Origin: a virus
Reading direction: 5' to 3' (one strand)
Length of the DNA: 36,175 bases
IMG/VR virus record: IMGVR_UViG_3300023179_000279
Coordinates: 1 to 36,175 of that record
The position numbers and the translations under genes are program-made. The stretch's first letter is position 1. The number at the start of each line of letters is the position of its first letter. Below the pieces are notes generated by a model. The model had not been told where the DNA came from. It ran no database searches and saw only the letters and a list, made by a program, of their open reading frames with translations. This document shows, piece after piece, positions 1,137 through 36,009 of this stretch.

Positions 1137-2021
1137 TTATAAATTGAAATAATTAAATATAGGTAATTCTGGAAAATCCATAGTTTTATCAAATAGAACA
1201 CTTGATAAAGTACCATCATCTAATTTATATTGAACCTGACATTGAATTCTAACATTTTTAGGAGACATTATAACAAAATCTTTTCTGTTTCTTAGATCAG
1301 TATCTATAGTTAGAGATAATTGTCCACTAGTATATTCTCCTAATAAATTTCCTGTTGCTGATGGAACCCAAGATACTTGCTTATAATCAGGAGTTAACCA
1401 CCATCTAATAACTGATGGAGAAGTTTTAACTCCTTTAATATAAAAATCAGCAGTTAATATTGGTTTTCCTTCTGGGGTATTGTCCTTTATTACATTAATA
1501 GAAACATCTGTAGGTAAAATATTTGGTATGTTAAGATTACATGACCATGTTGCTGAGGCAAATACTTCTGCTACTTCTAAATCACTTGCATTAGGATTTC
1601 CTAATATAGATATAGCTTTGGTATATGCGGGAGTTTTCTTTATGGCATTCATGTTAGCTAATGCCATAAAACTTATAAAAGTATAATTTGTTTTTAAAAC
1701 AAAAGAATCATTTTCATCTAAACTTATTACAGAAGTTAATGTTTGCTTTCTACCATCAATAGTAGATGTACTAACCATAGTGGCTGTTCTATTTCTATAA
1801 TCTAATGTTAATGTTCCTGTTCCTATTTGTCCTAACAAATTATTTTTCATATTAGTCTGTTCAATATAGGAAAATCTTGTAGGATTTGGGTTATATTGGA
1901 AGTATTTTCTATCAATTCCTTGCCAAAATGTCATATCTTTATTATAAAATAAATTTAAAACATTTTTTAACTGATTTAAATCAGTAATTTTTATAGTTTC
2001 TATTTCTAAAATGTTGTTCAT
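1137..2021 (-). CDS. Hypothetical protein, 294 aa, beta-rich, possibly structural
   Basis: I do not recognise this protein. It is rich in Thr, Ser, Asn and aromatic residues with alternating hydrophobic patterning, as in beta-rich phage structural or appendage proteins. It has no signal peptide or membrane helix. Its ATG overlaps the TGA of the preceding 252-residue gene (ATGA at 2018-2021), so the two are probably translationally coupled and may work together. A virion or fibre role is inference from composition only. Confidence 0.75.
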   Translation of the reverse strand: MNNILEIETIKITDLNQLKNVLNLFYNKDMTFWQGIDRKYFQYNPNPTRFSYIEQTNMKNNLLGQIGTGTLTLDYRNRTATMVSTSTIDGRKQTLTSVISLDENDSFVLKTNYTFISFMALANMNAIKKTPAYTKAISILGNPNASDLEVAEVFASATWSCNLNIPNILPTDVSINVIKDNTPEGKPILTADFYIKGVKTSPSVIRWWLTPDYKQVSWVPSATGNLLGEYTSGQLSLTIDTDLRNRKDFVIMSPKNVRIQCQVQYKLDDGTLSSVLFDKTMDFPELPIFNYFNL

Positions 2022-2776
2022 ATGAAAGAATTTAAAGGTATTATTAATGCTGGTTGTGTTGCTTTAACACCATGGTAAAGAATAAAATGGATAGATTCAA
2101 CATCGATGTCTGTTATGTCTACAGATTTATAAACATAGTCAGTTGTTAATTTATTTATATCGGCTCCATTTATTGTAGTTTCTAAAGGTATATCTGTTCT
2201 TTTTGTTATTTTACAAAATTCTAATCTACCACTACCTCTATTAAAATCAAATTTATTACCACAAGCAATATACATGTTCCCTAGATAATTGCTATCAACA
2301 ACATTACTTAATAACCACATACATCCTAATCCTTGAATATCTTCTGTAGAAGTATCTGCTTGCTGCCATGGTTTATAATTTATTGTTGTAGTATTTTTTA
2401 TTTGAGCAATTCCATCAGATACAGTTATTTCAACAGAAGGATTACATTCATATAAATCATTTTCATCAGCTTTAACTAATAAAGAAATAATAGTAGCTTT
2501 ATTTTTATCAACATTATCATAATGCCTCCAATGAGATCCATCATTAGATGAATTTTCTAAAAGAGTTTTTTTATTAGTTTTAGTATTTAAAAGTATAATT
2601 TGGTTAGCTGTTTGACTATCAACTACCATATTATCCCATAAATAATTAGATGGTCTTTTATTTCTAGTAAAAATAACTCCTCCTGTAGAGTCTTTTAAAT
2701 AACTAGCAACCATAACCATGTCTTGTAAACCTAAATTTTTAATTTCAGGTAAAGTGTTAAATAGGGTGTATTTCAT
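2018..2776 (-). CDS. Hypothetical protein, 252 aa, beta-rich
   Basis: I do not recognise this protein. It has mixed beta-type patterning, several Trp residues and scattered Cys, and no signal or membrane segment. Its stop overlaps the start of the following gene by an ATGA quartet. It lies directly downstream of the recombined thyA tail and nuclease fragment. No clear promoter-motif copy sits in front of it, so it may be read from upstream. Confidence 0.75.
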   Translation of the reverse strand: MKYTLFNTLPEIKNLGLQDMVMVASYLKDSTGGVIFTRNKRPSNYLWDNMVVDSQTANQIILLNTKTNKKTLLENSSNDGSHWRHYDNVDKNKATIISLLVKADENDLYECNPSVEITVSDGIAQIKNTTTINYKPWQQADTSTEDIQGLGCMWLLSNVVDSNYLGNMYIACGNKFDFNRGSGRLEFCKITKRTDIPLETTINGADINKLTTDYVYKSVDITDIDVESIHFILYHGVKATQPALIIPLNSFI

Positions 2777-2779
2777 TTT

Positions 2780-2923
2780 TTAGGGTTTTTGTGATAATAA
2801 ATATATATCAATTTGATAAAGGTGCTTTAATTGTTGGGTGTGATTGTGAAATCCTAAGTCTACAATAGCTGTTACTGTATCTCCATCATAAACGTCTTTA
2901 ATTGTTGCTCTATATTTGTACAT
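2780..2923 (-). pseudogene. Truncated staphylococcal-nuclease-like gene fused out of frame to a copy of the thyA 3' end
   Basis: The frame from ATG at 2923 begins YRATIKDVYDGDTVTAIVDL, which matches the start of the SNase (thermonuclease) fold, including the VxDGDT strand. After about residue 25 (Gly-Phe) similarity stops, because the DNA becomes a copy of the thyA 3' end read in another frame. The protein then runs to a stop at residue 48. SNase domains are usually 110-150 residues, so the RxxGIDxPE part and the rest of the active site are missing. In the other frame the copied tail reads QSHPTIKAPLSN followed by TGA at 2808-2810. I treat it as a recombination scar, though a 47-residue peptide could still be made. 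Confidence 0.72.
2810..2840. repeat. 31-bp direct repeat, copy 1 (duplicated thyA 3' end)
   Basis: These 31 bases are identical to 3127-3157, and similarity continues to 2846 with one mismatch at 2841. The minus strand encodes the last ten residues of thymidylate synthase (PTIKAPLSN region) followed by TGA, whereas the functional copy ends in TAA. The two copies are 317 bp apart and bracket a nuclease fragment and a 64-residue gene. Confidence 0.92.
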
Positions 2924-2926
2924 GTT

Positions 2927-3121
2927 TTAGTGTGTTCCATTTGTGAGAGATATTCCATGTCTTAAACCTGTGACAAAATCTTTGAACTCTTGTTCTGTTG
3001 TGATATAATTTCCAAGAACAATTCCAACTTCATTTCCAACATCTGATAAATCTCCATTGTCATATGGTACCTTTGATAAGGATTCTGAAATTTGTTTTAA
3101 GATATGTTGAAAGTTGCTCAT
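2927..3121 (-). CDS. Hypothetical protein, 64 aa, between the two thyA-tail repeats
   Basis: I do not recognise this protein. It is small and acidic, with an amphipathic N-terminal helix (FQHILKQISESLSKV). It starts 4 nt beyond the thyA stop at 3125 and ends 3 nt before the nuclease-fragment start, so it reads as part of the same transcript. It lies wholly inside the segment bracketed by the 31-bp repeats and may have arrived with that segment. Confidence 0.62.
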   Translation of the reverse strand: MSNFQHILKQISESLSKVPYDNGDLSDVGNEVGIVLGNYITTEQEFKDFVTGLRHGISLTNGTH

Positions 3122-3124
3122 GTT

Positions 3125-3904
3125 TTAATTTGATAAAGGTGCTTTAATTGTTGGGTGAGATTGATAATTCTCTAAAATAACATCATTAGTTGATGAACAA
3201 TAAATTCCATCTTGGACTATTACTTTAGGTAGTGGATAAGGTTCTCTACCAATCTGTTCTTTGGCTTGTTCAATATGATTCAAATATAGATGAACATCAC
3301 CCAAATTACCAATCAATTCATCGGGTATCATATTCACTTCATCAGCTATCATAGTCAATAATAATCCATAAGAAGCAATGTTGAATGGTAAACCTAAGAA
3401 TGTATCTACTGAGCGTTGATTCCACATTAAAGAGATTGCTCTTCTTTGTACTCCAATTTTATCTAATACATCGTGATACTGTTCTTCTGTGAGTTCTCCA
3501 ATAGGAAAATCCATAACATCTCTATTAGATAGTTTTTCCCATAAATCAAATCGTTCTTTAATAGACAACTCTCTTGTATAAACTTGAAATCCGTAATGAC
3601 AAGGTGGGAGTACCATATTTGGTAAATCATGGACTGCCCAAGCATTCACAATGAGCCTGCGTGAATCAGGATTTGTTTTTAATTCTTTGATTAGTTCTGC
3701 AATTTGGTCAATACCTGGCTTAATAACTTTTTTAGGTTCATCCACAGTAGACCATTCGCCCCAATTTCTCCATTGCTTACCATAAATTGGACCTAAATCA
3801 CCCCACTTCTTAGCAAACTCATCATCGGTTTTGATTTTGTTGATGAATTCTTCTTGTGTGTATGGTCTTCCATCTGAGTGTAAATCTATTTTTGTGAATT
3901 TCAT
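3125..3904 (-). CDS. thyA: Thymidylate synthase, C-terminal part of a split gene
   Basis: This 259-residue protein is the C-terminal part of ThyA, which makes dTMP from dUMP and methylene-tetrahydrofolate. Visible signatures are DLGPIYGKQWRNW (about 36-48), the phosphate-binding SRR (81-83), the nucleophile Cys102 in LPPCHYGFQ, NIASYGLL, and GDVHLYLNHI near the C-terminus. The Arg loop of the active site lies in the separate N-terminal piece. The start at 3904 is chosen because its ATG overlaps the TGA of the GIY-YIG gene (ATGA), which suggests coupled translation. The longer ATG at 3925 would only add residues read out of frame from the endonuclease end. The two pieces could assemble in trans, as known for phage Aeh1 NrdA, but that is inference. 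Confidence 0.85.
   Translation of the reverse strand: MKFTKIDLHSDGRPYTQEEFINKIKTDDEFAKKWGDLGPIYGKQWRNWGEWSTVDEPKKVIKPGIDQIAELIKELKTNPDSRRLIVNAWAVHDLPNMVLPPCHYGFQVYTRELSIKERFDLWEKLSNRDVMDFPIGELTEEQYHDVLDKIGVQRRAISLMWNQRSVDTFLGLPFNIASYGLLLTMIADEVNMIPDELIGNLGDVHLYLNHIEQAKEQIGREPYPLPKVIVQDGIYCSSTNDVILENYQSHPTIKAPLSN
3127..3157. repeat. 31-bp direct repeat, copy 2 (functional thyA 3' end)
   Basis: This is identical to 2810-2840 and forms the actual end of the thyA C-terminal piece, with the last base belonging to its TAA stop. Together the copies look like a target whose gene end was restored after an insertion, similar to attachment sites at gene 3' ends. Confidence 0.92.
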
Positions 3905-4713
3905 ATTTTGGTTTTGTATTTCCATTTATATCCACTTGCTGTTTTAGTTTTACCTCTTAAAACATTTTGTGGATCTATATTTAATAATTGTTTTACTTCT
4001 GTTTGAGATTTAAATTCTTGGATAAAATTATCTTCTAAATCATATTGTAATATTGGTTTGCTAATTTTATTTTTAAATTCTTCCGTTTTAGGTTTTTTAT
4101 TGATAGATTTTCCTTTAGTAGGACTAGTTCTACCTTTAAGTGGTGATGGTTTACCTATTTTACCATGAGGTTCAAGTATTGGAGGAGTTCCATCCCATTT
4201 ATCTTTATATTTAAAAATATACCCACCTGCTGTTTTAACAGCTCCTCTTAAAACTTCAGCTAAACGTAGGCCAGTAAATTTTACAGCATCATGATAAGAC
4301 TCATATTCTGCTATTAAATTTCCTTGTTTATCAAATTGTAGTACAGGTTTTTTAAGTTTAGAATTAAACCCTTTAGGTTTTGGACCAGAATTAGATAATC
4401 CTATCTTATGTTTTGTTTCTTCACTACATAATCCATTAGCGTTTCCTAGTCTTAAGTTTAATCCATTTTTTCCTAAAACATCATAGTGTAATCCCCAATA
4501 TATCTCTCGTTCATTCAATTGTTCTAAACTACACTCTTCAATTACTTCAAACATATGTTGTTCCCAACCATATTTTTTAAGAGAACGATATAGTTTATGT
4601 TGTTTATCACATCTAAGTTTTTTATAATCTTCTTCTCTTTTTTTAAGATTAATAGACTGACCAATGTAAATTTTGTTGTTTGGGTTTGTTATTTTATAAA
4701 TCCCTATATCCAT
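3901..4713 (-). CDS. GIY-YIG homing endonuclease inserted in thyA
   Basis: The 270-residue protein has an N-terminal GIY-YIG nuclease domain: GIY at 4-6, YIG at 16-18, Arg26, and the Glu-bearing LNEREIYWG near 70. A NUMOD3-like stretch follows (about 95-120, SEETKHKIGLSNSG). Then come two NUMOD1-like repeats (KPVLQFDKQGNLIAEYESY and KPILQYDLEDNFIQEFKSQ). This is the modular I-TevI-like layout, with a nuclease tethered to DNA-binding modules. It separates the two thyA pieces, with 37 nt after the N-terminal piece and an ATGA overlap with the C-terminal piece. I-TevI of phage T4 also resides in a thymidylate synthase gene, but inside a group I intron, for which there is no room here. Confidence 0.9.
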   Translation of the reverse strand: MDIGIYKITNPNNKIYIGQSINLKKREEDYKKLRCDKQHKLYRSLKKYGWEQHMFEVIEECSLEQLNEREIYWGLHYDVLGKNGLNLRLGNANGLCSEETKHKIGLSNSGPKPKGFNSKLKKPVLQFDKQGNLIAEYESYHDAVKFTGLRLAEVLRGAVKTAGGYIFKYKDKWDGTPPILEPHGKIGKPSPLKGRTSPTKGKSINKKPKTEEFKNKISKPILQYDLEDNFIQEFKSQTEVKQLLNIDPQNVLRGKTKTASGYKWKYKTKI

Positions 4714-4750
4714 AATATTATTTTATTATAAATATATGGGAATTCCAAAT

Positions 4751-5083
4751 TTAGCATTCATTATCAACATTTTCTTGAGATTGTTTATACTTTTCGTATT
4801 CTTTTAAATAATTAGAAAAGGCATCTCCATTCCATATGTTGCAGTCTTGTTTTACTAAGTATTTGATGTTAGTATCACCTCTTAAGAACCATAACAATTC
4901 TGTAGTAATTGTTTTGAATGGCATCTTCTTGGTTGTAAGAAGTGGAAAACCTTCTGACATTTTATGTCTGATTTGCCTTCCAAATACTGATAGTGTACCA
5001 GTACCTGTTCTGTCATTCTTTTCTACTCCGTTGTCAAGAATGTCTTGGATTAATGATTGGTAGTCTTTGTCTAATTTATTCAT
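4751..5083 (-). CDS. thyA: Thymidylate synthase, N-terminal part of a split gene
   Basis: This 110-residue piece contains the ThyA N-terminal signatures: the phosphate-binding NDRTGTGT (23-30), [11 protein letters not shown], the [15 protein letters not shown] helix, and NIWNGDAF. After NIWNGDAF it runs on through a lysine-rich loop and stops with Glu-Cys-TAA just before the endonuclease gene. In phage and Bacillus-type ThyA the same loop leads straight into the DDEFAKKWGDLGP region found at the start of the C-terminal piece. The break therefore lies in a variable surface insertion and loses little or no sequence. Alone, this piece lacks the catalytic Cys. Confidence 0.88.
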
Positions 5084-5093
5084 AACTTATATT

Positions 5094-5663
5094 TTATACT
5101 GCTGCAAATCTAACTAAACATCCTCTATATCCTTCTGGTCTATATTCTTCAGGATTGTTTAATACTTTTTCTAACATATCACGAATCATTTGCTTATCGT
5201 CTTCATAAGTTCTCTCAGGAGCATTAATATCTTGAAGAAACTCAGGTGACCAAGTTAAAGTAATACTTTGTTTTGGTTCAAAAGTTTCTGGGTTGTATAT
5301 AGTAGGAGCAAATACACAACCGTCTTTTACTGGTTCATGTAATGATTTTGGATCATACATTTTTGGTGTAAATAAGACTTTATAAACATATCCCACTTTT
5401 CCAGTATGTTTAGGATCATCATTGGTTATTTTATATGATTTTGCGACAATTGGTGTTGTTTTATCTTCTGTAAGACCTGAAGGTAATTCCATCCATACGA
5501 TTCTTTCAAACTCAAAATGTTTGATTAGTTCTGCTTCTACTTGAATACGTTGCTCTTCAGTTAGATTGTCAATACCAAATGTATTGTCTAAACTGTGATT
5601 GTTTTCTAATGGAGCATTTGGAGCACAAATACTCATTAATTTTTCTGCTAGTTCTGTTTTCAT
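5094..5663 (-). CDS. Hypothetical protein, 189 aa
   Basis: I do not recognise this protein. It is acidic and soluble, with several Pro residues and a C-terminal segment rich in Glu and Arg. No catalytic motif is visible. The ATG overlaps the TGA of the small frame-disrupted gene before it (ATGA at 5660-5663). It is followed 10 nt later by thyA, so it probably belongs to the same nucleotide-metabolism transcript. Confidence 0.75.
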   Translation of the reverse strand: MKTELAEKLMSICAPNAPLENNHSLDNTFGIDNLTEEQRIQVEAELIKHFEFERIVWMELPSGLTEDKTTPIVAKSYKITNDDPKHTGKVGYVYKVLFTPKMYDPKSLHEPVKDGCVFAPTIYNPETFEPKQSITLTWSPEFLQDINAPERTYEDDKQMIRDMLEKVLNNPEEYRPEGYRGCLVRFAAV

Positions 5664-14521: not shown

Positions 14522-15199
14522 TCATATACATTTGTATTTCCAAATGAAATTACAGCAGGTTTGAATTTCTCCTCTACAACAAGCAGTTATATTTTGAATA
14601 AATATATTAAGATAGGTCGCTGCTTCTTTGGCACTACCCCATTCTTTTATTAAATCACCTTCTAAACTATATTGTAAAACGGGTTTTTTAGATTTAAAGT
14701 TTTTAGTAATAGGATTTAATTTTAATACTTTAGTATCTGTAAATCTAAAATTTTTAAGAGTCATAGTAGGGTGATTCACAATATGGGATAACCATCCTTT
14801 ACTCATATTTAATTCTAAAGATGCTTCATTAACACTTTTCCATTCTTTAATAAAGTTACCTTCTAAATCATATTGATAAATTTTTTTACTCATTTTAATT
14901 TTAGTTTCTTCACTAATAATACTATTTTGATTTCCTAATTTATGATTTAAACCTTCATTAATAGTATTAAAATGTAGTCCCCAATATATTTCTCGTTCAT
15001 TAAGTTGTTCTTTTGAACATTCCTCTAAAACTTCAAATTTATGGTTTTCATAACCATATTTTTTGAGGGAATTATAAAGTTTAAGCTGACATTTGATACT
15101 ATTAATATGCTTGTAATATTTCCATCTATTCTCAATATCAACTGATTGGCCAATGTAAATTCTACCTGATGGAGATGTTATCTTGTAAATACCTGTCAT
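14522..15199 (-). CDS. Free-standing GIY-YIG homing endonuclease
   Basis: The 225-residue protein has GIY at 3-5, YIG at 15-17, Arg25, and LNEREIYWGLHF near 72. A short NUMOD3-like stretch (ISEETKIKMSK) and two NUMOD1-like modules follow (KIYQYDLEGNFIKEWKSV; KPVLQYSLEGDLIKEWGSA). The nuclease half is closely similar to the enzyme inside thyA, so the two are recent relatives. The start is the ATG at 15199, preceded by TATAAATAATATT, similar to the TAATATT ahead of the thyA-borne enzyme. It lies between genes and disrupts none that I can see. Confidence 0.9.
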   Translation of the reverse strand: MTGIYKITSPSGRIYIGQSVDIENRWKYYKHINSIKCQLKLYNSLKKYGYENHKFEVLEECSKEQLNEREIYWGLHFNTINEGLNHKLGNQNSIISEETKIKMSKKIYQYDLEGNFIKEWKSVNEASLELNMSKGWLSHIVNHPTMTLKNFRFTDTKVLKLNPITKNFKSKKPVLQYSLEGDLIKEWGSAKEAATYLNIFIQNITACCRGEIQTCCNFIWKYKCI

Positions 15200-15242
15200 A
15201 ATATTATTTATAACAAATATATACAAGTTTCTTTAGGCACTT

Positions 15243-24822: not shown

Positions 24823-25509
24823 TTAATTAAATTTATATTTCCAAATATATCCAAAAGCTGATTTAGATATATTTGTTAGATTGTTTGTAATACTTCTTTT
24901 ATTAATTTGTAATTGTTCAGATGCTTTTTTTATAGAAGACCATTCTTTAATAAAATTACCTTCTAAATCGTATTGTAAAATAGGTTTTAATGTTTTACTA
25001 TTAGTATTGTGTATCCAATTTTTCCCTAAATTATGTTTACATTTTCCTTTAAGAGATTTACTTTGCTTTACTTTACTTTCTTCACTCCTAGGCCCTCTAT
25101 TTTTAAATCGTAGTTTTTGGGCTTCAGAAAATCCTTTAGGTTTTGGTTTTTTATTTTTTATTTTAGAAATACCTTTTTGTTTTTCTCCTCTTTTTTTATA
25201 AATAATTTGTTTTTCTTCTTCACTCTTATTTTGAAAAGGATTAGTACCTCGTTTTCTATTATCTTCTAAATTGTAAAACATTGGATCTTTTAAAGCATTA
25301 TATTTATTTATCTAATATGTTTCTTTCAATTCCATTTCATATATAGAAGAACAATATTCTAAAATTTCTTTTTTAAAATTTTCTTTACCGTATTTTTTAA
25401 TAGCCTTTAAAATTAAAGTCCCACTACCAATATATTTAGGATTATTATTACTATCCATTCCAATATATTTTTTTCCATTTATTAAATTTGTTGTTAGGTA
25501 AACTACCAT
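24823..25509 (-). pseudogene. GIY-YIG homing endonuclease gene interrupted by an in-frame amber codon
   Basis: The N-terminal part (ATG at 25509) reads VVYLTTNLINGKKYIGMDSN to MELKETY and then TAG at 25314-25312. The same frame continues after it (INKYNALKDPMFYNLEDNRK) through NUMOD3-like segments and a NUMOD1 module (KPILQYDLEGNFIKEWSSI) to TAA at 24823. In relatives the stop position is usually Trp, so TGG to TAG is one substitution. The full frame is 229 codons. The N-terminal peptide contains the YIG half only, so nuclease activity is unlikely unless the stop is suppressed. Confidence 0.82.
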
Positions 25510-35439: not shown

Positions 35440-36009
35440 TTATAACTCTTGGTATTTTAAAACATCATCTACTGTGATATTATATGTTGAAACAAAAGGA
35501 GAAGTCACATATTTACCTTTATGTGCATTTTCTATATCTTTTTTTAACATTTGTAATGCGTACTCTTTACCAAATTTTTCACTACGAAATTTATACTCTC
35601 GTGCGTACCATCTTATTTCAGCTTGTTTATTGATTTTATCAACATCTTCTGAGTATTGGCTAAAATACTTTTTAGCTAAATTAAGAATTTTATCTTTAGT
35701 GTCTTTTGTGATTTGATTTAATTCGACTAATCTATTAAAGAATTTTAAAAGTCCTTCATTATTAAAATCTTCAGGACCAGAGTTACAATATGTTCCACCC
35801 ATATATCCTAACATATTATATATTTCTTCATCAGGAGTGGAAGATGTAAGTTTGGTTCCAGCCATACCAAATCCCCTCTCTTTAGCTAAAGGATCATTTT
35901 TAATTAAAGATACATATTGAGGAAATTTTCTATAGAAACCCTCCCATTGTGCATTATAGAAACATTCTGTTAATAATATTTCTTTTAATAAATTAGTTAA
36001 TTTAATCAT
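35440..36009 (-). CDS. Hypothetical protein, 189 aa
   Basis: I do not recognise this protein. It begins MIKLTNLLKEILLTECFYNA, an N-terminal pattern also loosely seen in the ART-like protein (MKLLKVLLEIYKEE). Later parts are helical and basic, with GFGMAGTKL and MLGYMGGTYCNSGPEDF. It may carry a shared leader helix for localisation or processing, which is speculation. No membrane segment is visible. Confidence 0.7.
   Translation of the reverse strand: MIKLTNLLKEILLTECFYNAQWEGFYRKFPQYVSLIKNDPLAKERGFGMAGTKLTSSTPDEEIYNMLGYMGGTYCNSGPEDFNNEGLLKFFNRLVELNQITKDTKDKILNLAKKYFSQYSEDVDKINKQAEIRWYAREYKFRSEKFGKEYALQMLKKDIENAHKGKYVTSPFVSTYNITVDDVLKYQEL

Follow-up and report, generated by a model that had tools for sequence, protein, structure and literature searches.

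The 3' end of the thymidylate synthase gene thyA is present twice in the viral DNA analyzed here, a stretch of 36,175 nt (IMG/VR record IMGVR_UViG_3300023179_000279) that is termed the window throughout, and the downstream copy is very probably the scar of an insertion behind thyA that replaced the 3' end of the gene and left the old tail further downstream. In related phages, too, genes have repeatedly been inserted behind thyA, with its 3' end renewed and the old tail left over; an I-TevI-like endonuclease probably started the process there. For the event in the window, we infer a homing endonuclease step as the cause.

A second thyA 3' end in the window

The genes and elements surrounding the two copies are all located on the minus strand:

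2018..2776 (-): 252-aa gene, which would have followed the original thyA tail
2780..2923 (-): hybrid ORF of 47 aa, an SNase start followed by the relic in another frame (ORF list, phrog_452 match)
2795..2804 (-): motif ATATTTATTA, a probable promoter just past the relic (motif enrichment)
2808..2846 (-): tail relic (copy 2), CAATCACACCCAACAATTAAAGCACCTTTATCAAATTGA, read as the displaced end of another thyA allele
2849..2923 (-): 5' fragment (25 codons) of an SNase-like nuclease gene that breaks off at the junction (phrog_452 match and intact SNases)
2927..3121 (-): inserted gene for a 64-aa protein (p64) with no assigned function (relatives in other phages)
3125..3163 (-): tail copy 1, CAATCTCACCCAACAATTAAAGCACCTTTATCAAATTAA, which closes the functional thyA frame
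3125..3925 (-): 3' part of thyA, 266 aa (Pfam Thymidylat_synt, E 2.6e-62; aligned to the intact ThyA of locus L002)
3901..4713 (-): GIY-YIG/NUMOD endonuclease gene splitting thyA (Pfam GIY-YIG, E 5e-6; NUMOD1, E 8e-8)
4751..5083 (-): 5' part of thyA, 110 aa (Pfam Thymidylat_synt, E 1e-31)

The two tail copies contain an exact direct repeat of 31 bp (2810-2840 and 3127-3157); the 36-kb window has no other that reaches 20 nt, and the longest repeat in 100 Markov resamples of the window measured 20 nt. This 31-bp identity, described in an earlier sequence-only reading, is indeed exact, and the homology around it is longer than stated there, spanning 39 nt with 37 matches between 2808-2846 and 3125-3163 of the minus strand. 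As that reading proposed, both copies are able to end a ThyA frame: each encodes QSHPTIKAPLSN followed by a stop, and they differ in a synonymous Ser codon and in the stop codon itself (TCT and TAA in copy 1, TCA and TGA in copy 2). A degenerate pattern for the thyA tail matched exactly these two copies and nothing in shuffled sequences, and a chance match as the source of the repeat was ruled out by this pattern search and the Markov resampling.

Copy 2 carries the form that is commoner among 75 thyA genes of relatives; two of these, L005 and L060, differ from it in the stop codon only. Since its Ser codon is common in relatives, copy 2 need not derive from the thyA gene of the window. The sequence that follows it, TGATATATATTTATTATC, is similar to the thyA 3' flanks of L021, L027, and L003. 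Taken together, the commoner form and the thyA-like flank make copy 2 look like the end of a different thyA allele with its own flank, and the earlier proposal of a simple duplication of this gene's end was abandoned.

Between the copies, the previously noted 64-residue gene is present at 2927-3121, and in other phages, relatives of p64 are encoded 0.4-1.1 kb behind thyA. It is followed by the SNase fragment: residues 1-31 of the 47-aa ORF match the phage SNase family phrog_452 (E 8e-6). A motif scan, used only for comparing SNase sequences, yielded 25 SNase contigs, and since intact SNases carry different residues past DLGF, the gene in the window is cut after approximately 25 codons. The earlier description of a tail copy fused to the first 25 SNase codons was thus correct as to the SNase start and the cut, while the copy itself is out of frame in the SNase ORF. 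The 47-aa hybrid at 2780..2923 is probably no functional gene. No endonuclease ORF was found between the tail copies of the window, which enclose p64 and the SNase fragment alone. The 3' part of thyA upstream exhibits a standard I-TevI-type site, RSVDTFLGLPFN, and a standard tail, i.e., it is not recoded. From thyA onward, the order is therefore standard thyA end, p64, truncated SNase gene, relic, promoter-like motif, and 252-aa gene.

The GIY-YIG/NUMOD gene that splits thyA is a separate insertion elsewhere in the gene and may be unrelated to the tail event. Within 3901-5083, it interrupts thyA in a variable loop, and the two parts jointly align end to end with the intact ThyA of L002, which suggests a two-chain enzyme. 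In L185, an HNH gene apparently interrupts thyA at a comparable position. Upstream of thyA, the window contains a 189-aa gene (5094-5663) whose family occurs as a thyA-tail cassette in L265, L267, and L272. A second GIY-YIG-like gene (14522-15226) and a possible remnant of an endonuclease of this type (24823-25281) were noticed when the translations were read.

Tail relics in related phages

A profile of the 39-nt thyA tail detected additional tails behind thyA in numerous contigs and had no match in 2.2 million shuffled positions. Of 173 distinct thyA 3' ends, 25 are followed by such relics (35 in total), and two cultured Flavobacterium phages are among these 25; two of the contributing scans were aimed at tails, and the sample drawn by ThyA protein alone showed a relic in 7 of about 75 loci. 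In 19 whole records, all profile matches are grouped in a single place and on the same strand, with as many as four tails in succession.

The relics sit between small accessory genes. The genes on their left fall into more than 20 unrelated families, and one and the same unit of gene and relic is joined to different right neighbors in different loci. Measured back from the last base of the stop codon, 10 of the 35 relics have their left end at 38 nt and 21 have it at 36-42 nt; the full range is 22-63 nt. Genes often make use of the relic for their own end, with a stop codon that abuts it, a stop inside it in another frame, or the thyA frame itself. Rare bases are found at 0.43 per 21 nt in relics versus 0.02 in genuine tails (p 3e-8), as expected of sequence that no longer codes for ThyA.

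The motif ATATTTATTA follows 9 of the 35 relics and 11 of the 173 thyA genes, with 0.007 occurrences expected per 45 nt. A motif ATATTTATNA, possibly a phage promoter, was observed on the minus strand of the window at 2804, 4735, 36021, 25524, 35440, and 13769; three of these sites are situated 12-28 nt ahead of gene starts (2776, 4713, and 36009). Cassette proteins of L264, L265, L266, L035, L138, L269, and L282, as well as the window protein encoded at 35440-36009, share N-termini such as MKKSELQQIIREEI or MIKLIDLL, which might function as a targeting sequence like that of the T4 internal head proteins.

Filled and empty sites

For 16 of the 35 relics, another phage has the gene on the right immediately behind an intact thyA, at similar spacing, and thereby provides an “empty site.” Filled and empty loci share 91% identity over 298 nt in the pair L268/L005, 88% over 300 nt in L273/L232, 90% in L280/L027, and 82% over 299 nt in L028/L154. 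The latter pair has an odd tail in common, QAHPHIKAPLSN, which is the relic in one locus and the thyA end in the other. From the relic onward, the filled locus L311 and the empty locus L185 are 95.5% identical over 1367 nt, whereas their upstream thyA sequences are different alleles (66% identical). The cultured isolates immuto 2-6A (MW353175) and 3-5A (MW353176) show 95% identity up to the thyA stop and, past a non-homologous segment that ends in a 24-nt relic in 3-5A, resume at 99.6%. As both are complete isolate genomes, the pattern in general is no artefact of metagenome assembly.

In 8 of 12 relative pairs, the relic is closer to the empty allele than the locus's own tail is (361 versus 308 of 432 nt); in L280, L282, L083, and L082 it is not nearer. 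The recurrent relics, the pairs of filled and empty sites, and the two cultured isolates strongly support the suggestion, already made from the window alone, of an insertion that renews the 3' end of the gene. The search of IMG/VR and phage records revealed no relative of the 252-aa gene and no phage in which thyA is directly followed by it, and p64 followed by an intact SNase gene was absent from all loci examined. The window event is consequently without a filled and empty pair of its own.

I-TevI-like endonucleases behind thyA

Recoding of the thyA end and the presence of an endonuclease behind it are associated in relatives when sequences, as opposed to independent events, are counted and relatedness is left uncorrected: in the thyA-based sample, 9 of 19 thyA genes whose tail is recoded, versus 1 of 147 with a standard tail, have an endonuclease at most 500 nt behind them; a search from one GIY-YIG endonuclease placed the gene 58-71 nt behind thyA in 27 of 35 non-redundant loci, with a recoded tail in 27 of 27 thyA genes directly ahead of a GIY-YIG gene; and in a separate count, FLGLPFN is kept in 0 of 23 thyA genes with an endonuclease versus 134 of 161 without, and the tail IKAPLSN in 0 of 23 versus 142 of 161. 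The T4 td intron and the I-TevI target fall in the same FLGLPFN motif.

The endonuclease of L311 contains GIY-YIG (4e-9), I-TevI_DNA-bd (1.6e-7), and I-TevI_ZnF (4.7e-7) domains, and that of L033 contains GIY-YIG (6e-9) and ZnF (1.6e-8), with the DNA-bd domain below the cut-off. In L033, L268, L028, and L311, for example, the endonuclease gene is located between the tail copies. In six loci (L299, L307, L311, L322, L345, and L346), its frame continues into the native tail (NYQ followed by SHPxIKAPLSN and the stop), and these in-frame fusions place the insertion point between the thyA codons NYQ and SHP. Judged by gene layout, the relatives' endonuclease is not carried by a group I intron; the thyA 3' end and stop are uninterrupted, and the gene starts 58-71 nt further on. 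These arrangements strongly suggest that relatives harbor an intron-free, I-TevI-like element composed of a recoded thyA end, an endonuclease gene, and the native tail.

In three of the four cases that were folded, the start of the endonuclease gene lies under a stable hairpin whose loop contains the motif ATATTTAT. In the thyA 3' flanks of L017, L032, L033, and L057, the hairpin is formed by AGGACTACC and GGTAGTCCT, and its loop contains ATATTTATA or a close variant; with a FLGLPFN-like stretch also present, the region is read as an I-TevI-like control region. The view that FLGLPFN past the thyA stop is another thyA scar was dropped, since in three of the four folded cases this stretch shares a hairpin with the start of the endonuclease gene; by analogy with I-TevI, it is better read as a putative regulatory mimic of the target.

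A homing co-conversion scar, as envisaged in the sequence-only reading, agrees with the relatives in which an endonuclease lies between a recoded and a displaced native tail. This support does not extend to the window, where no endonuclease lies between the copies and thyA is not recoded; homing is a putative cause of that event.

Proposed mechanism and alternative explanations

In the proposed scenario, a phage with the 252-aa gene behind its thyA would have acquired, by recombination, DNA comprising a thyA 3' end and extra genes. The new end would have taken the place of the resident one, and the last approximately 39 nt of the old thyA would have stayed downstream of the new genes as the relic. 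The left exchange may have occurred by homology within thyA, and the right exchange would have fused the truncated SNase gene with the old tail close to the thyA codons NYQ and SHP. The process may descend from an I-TevI-like element that cut unmodified thyA and carried a recoded, immune thyA end; repair of the break would copy the donor thyA end and its cargo, with the native tail acting as the right-hand homology. Endonuclease-free cassettes, including that of the window, would be later derivatives or passengers spread by recombination on the repeated tails.

It is a real possibility, if short of a probable one, that ordinary homologous recombination was sufficient, in which case the repeated tails of 36-45 nt would serve as exchange points and units of gene and relic, such as the insert of the window, would move without an endonuclease. 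This alternative is compatible with the scar reading and competes with the endonuclease step only. It would account for the units of gene and relic that are joined to different right neighbors, as in the MEKSK family (L264, L266, L277, L279, and L280), the MENYK family (L033, L267, L271, and L273), and the p189 family (L265, L267, and L272), and for the many relic loci that have no endonuclease. However, it explains neither how the left genes, of more than 20 unrelated kinds, each first came by a tail at almost the same point of thyA nor the link between endonuclease and recoding. A simple illegitimate recombination of two phages, in which SNase codon 25 met the thyA tail by chance and without any system, is unlikely. 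While the truncated SNase gene that is read out of frame, the weak microhomology at the window junction (GGATTT-CA-CAATCA), and the short microhomology AATTAA at the junction of immuto 3-5A are in line with it, relics occur in 25 loci with left ends clustered within a few nt, although remnants of other lengths would serve equally well.

Arrays of up to four tails, and the stops of several unrelated genes that abut the relic at the same base (TAA followed directly by TCACACC), are reminiscent of integron-like, site-specific insertion with the thyA tail as attachment site for a recombinase acting in trans. This is nevertheless very improbable, as the left ends of the relics range from 22 to 63 nt and no recombinase or integrase gene was present among the ten window ORFs scanned around the site. 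The classical attachment site considered previously is not borne out on the same grounds, and the variable boundaries in particular disfavor attachment-site recombination. Lastly, 31 identical bp at one locus could be taken for an in-place tandem duplication of the thyA end in the window genome, yet L060 and L005 contain the entire 31 bp of both copies, i.e., distinct alleles can be that alike. With the Ser codon that is common in relatives, a different stop, and a right flank like the thyA 3' flanks of L003, L021, and L027, copy 2 was assigned to another allele, and a fresh duplication, being extremely unlikely, was rejected.

Comparison with known systems

The closest described systems are the mitochondrial ORFs with C-terminal duplication (PMC3630166; PMC6279837) and the T4 homing endonucleases (PMC2988022). 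In fungal mitochondria, mobile endonuclease ORFs with C-terminal gene duplication are known from Allomyces atp6, from Glomus atp6, atp9, cox2, and nad3, and from Endoconidiophora atp6 and cob; they provide the host gene with a foreign 3' end, behind which the endonuclease ORF is located, and displace the native C-terminus downstream (PMC3630166; PMC6279837). The window similarly contains a second host-gene 3' end downstream (2808-2846) and is classed as a scar of this general type, but has no endonuclease between the copies and, lacking this defining feature, is not placed in the C-terminal-duplication family. The phage loci further differ from the mitochondrial ORFs in the host gene, thyA, in relics of approximately 22-63 nt, in multi-gene arrays of non-endonuclease cassettes, and in that cleavage is putative.

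Free-standing T4 seg and mob endonucleases are also situated beside a conserved gene and co-convert neighboring sequence; unlike these, in the available description, the relatives leave a duplicated gene tail and cassette arrays (PMC2988022). The relatives' start hairpin, with its promoter-like loop motif and FLGLPFN-like stretch before the gene, resembles the I-TevI operator (PMC2988022). As in the system of I-TevI and the T4 td group I intron, the enzymes of the relatives carry GIY-YIG, I-TevI zinc finger, NUMOD3, and I-TevI DNA-binding domains, and the thyA target region is altered, in relatives by recoding. In contrast to the td intron, their gene lies behind thyA without an intron, and immunity would come from recoding rather than from interruption. 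In integron cassette arrays, genes of uniform orientation, each with a short repeat behind it, are lined up beside a fixed landing site. The thyA-tail cassettes share the common direction, the short repeat after each gene, and the fixed site, whereas their repeat is coding sequence of a metabolic gene with variable boundaries, and no integrase was seen among the ten window ORFs.

Implications

The literature searched, the coverage of which was incomplete, contained no earlier description of thyA tail relics. It is tentatively proposed that the thyA 3' end serves as a permanent landing site at which a group of large phages, Flavobacterium phages among them, acquires genes: an intron-free I-TevI-like endonuclease would have made tail-flanked units, and the tails of 36-45 nt would now act as homology arms for the capture, stacking, and shuffling of unrelated accessory genes, recording successive insertions. 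The findings suggest how phages may take up accessory genes at one fixed place and still keep the metabolic gene. I-TevI-like enzymes apparently spread through the thymidylate synthase gene without an intron, by means of recoding, and the tail relics provide a sequence tag for finding and ordering such acquisitions in many phage genomes.
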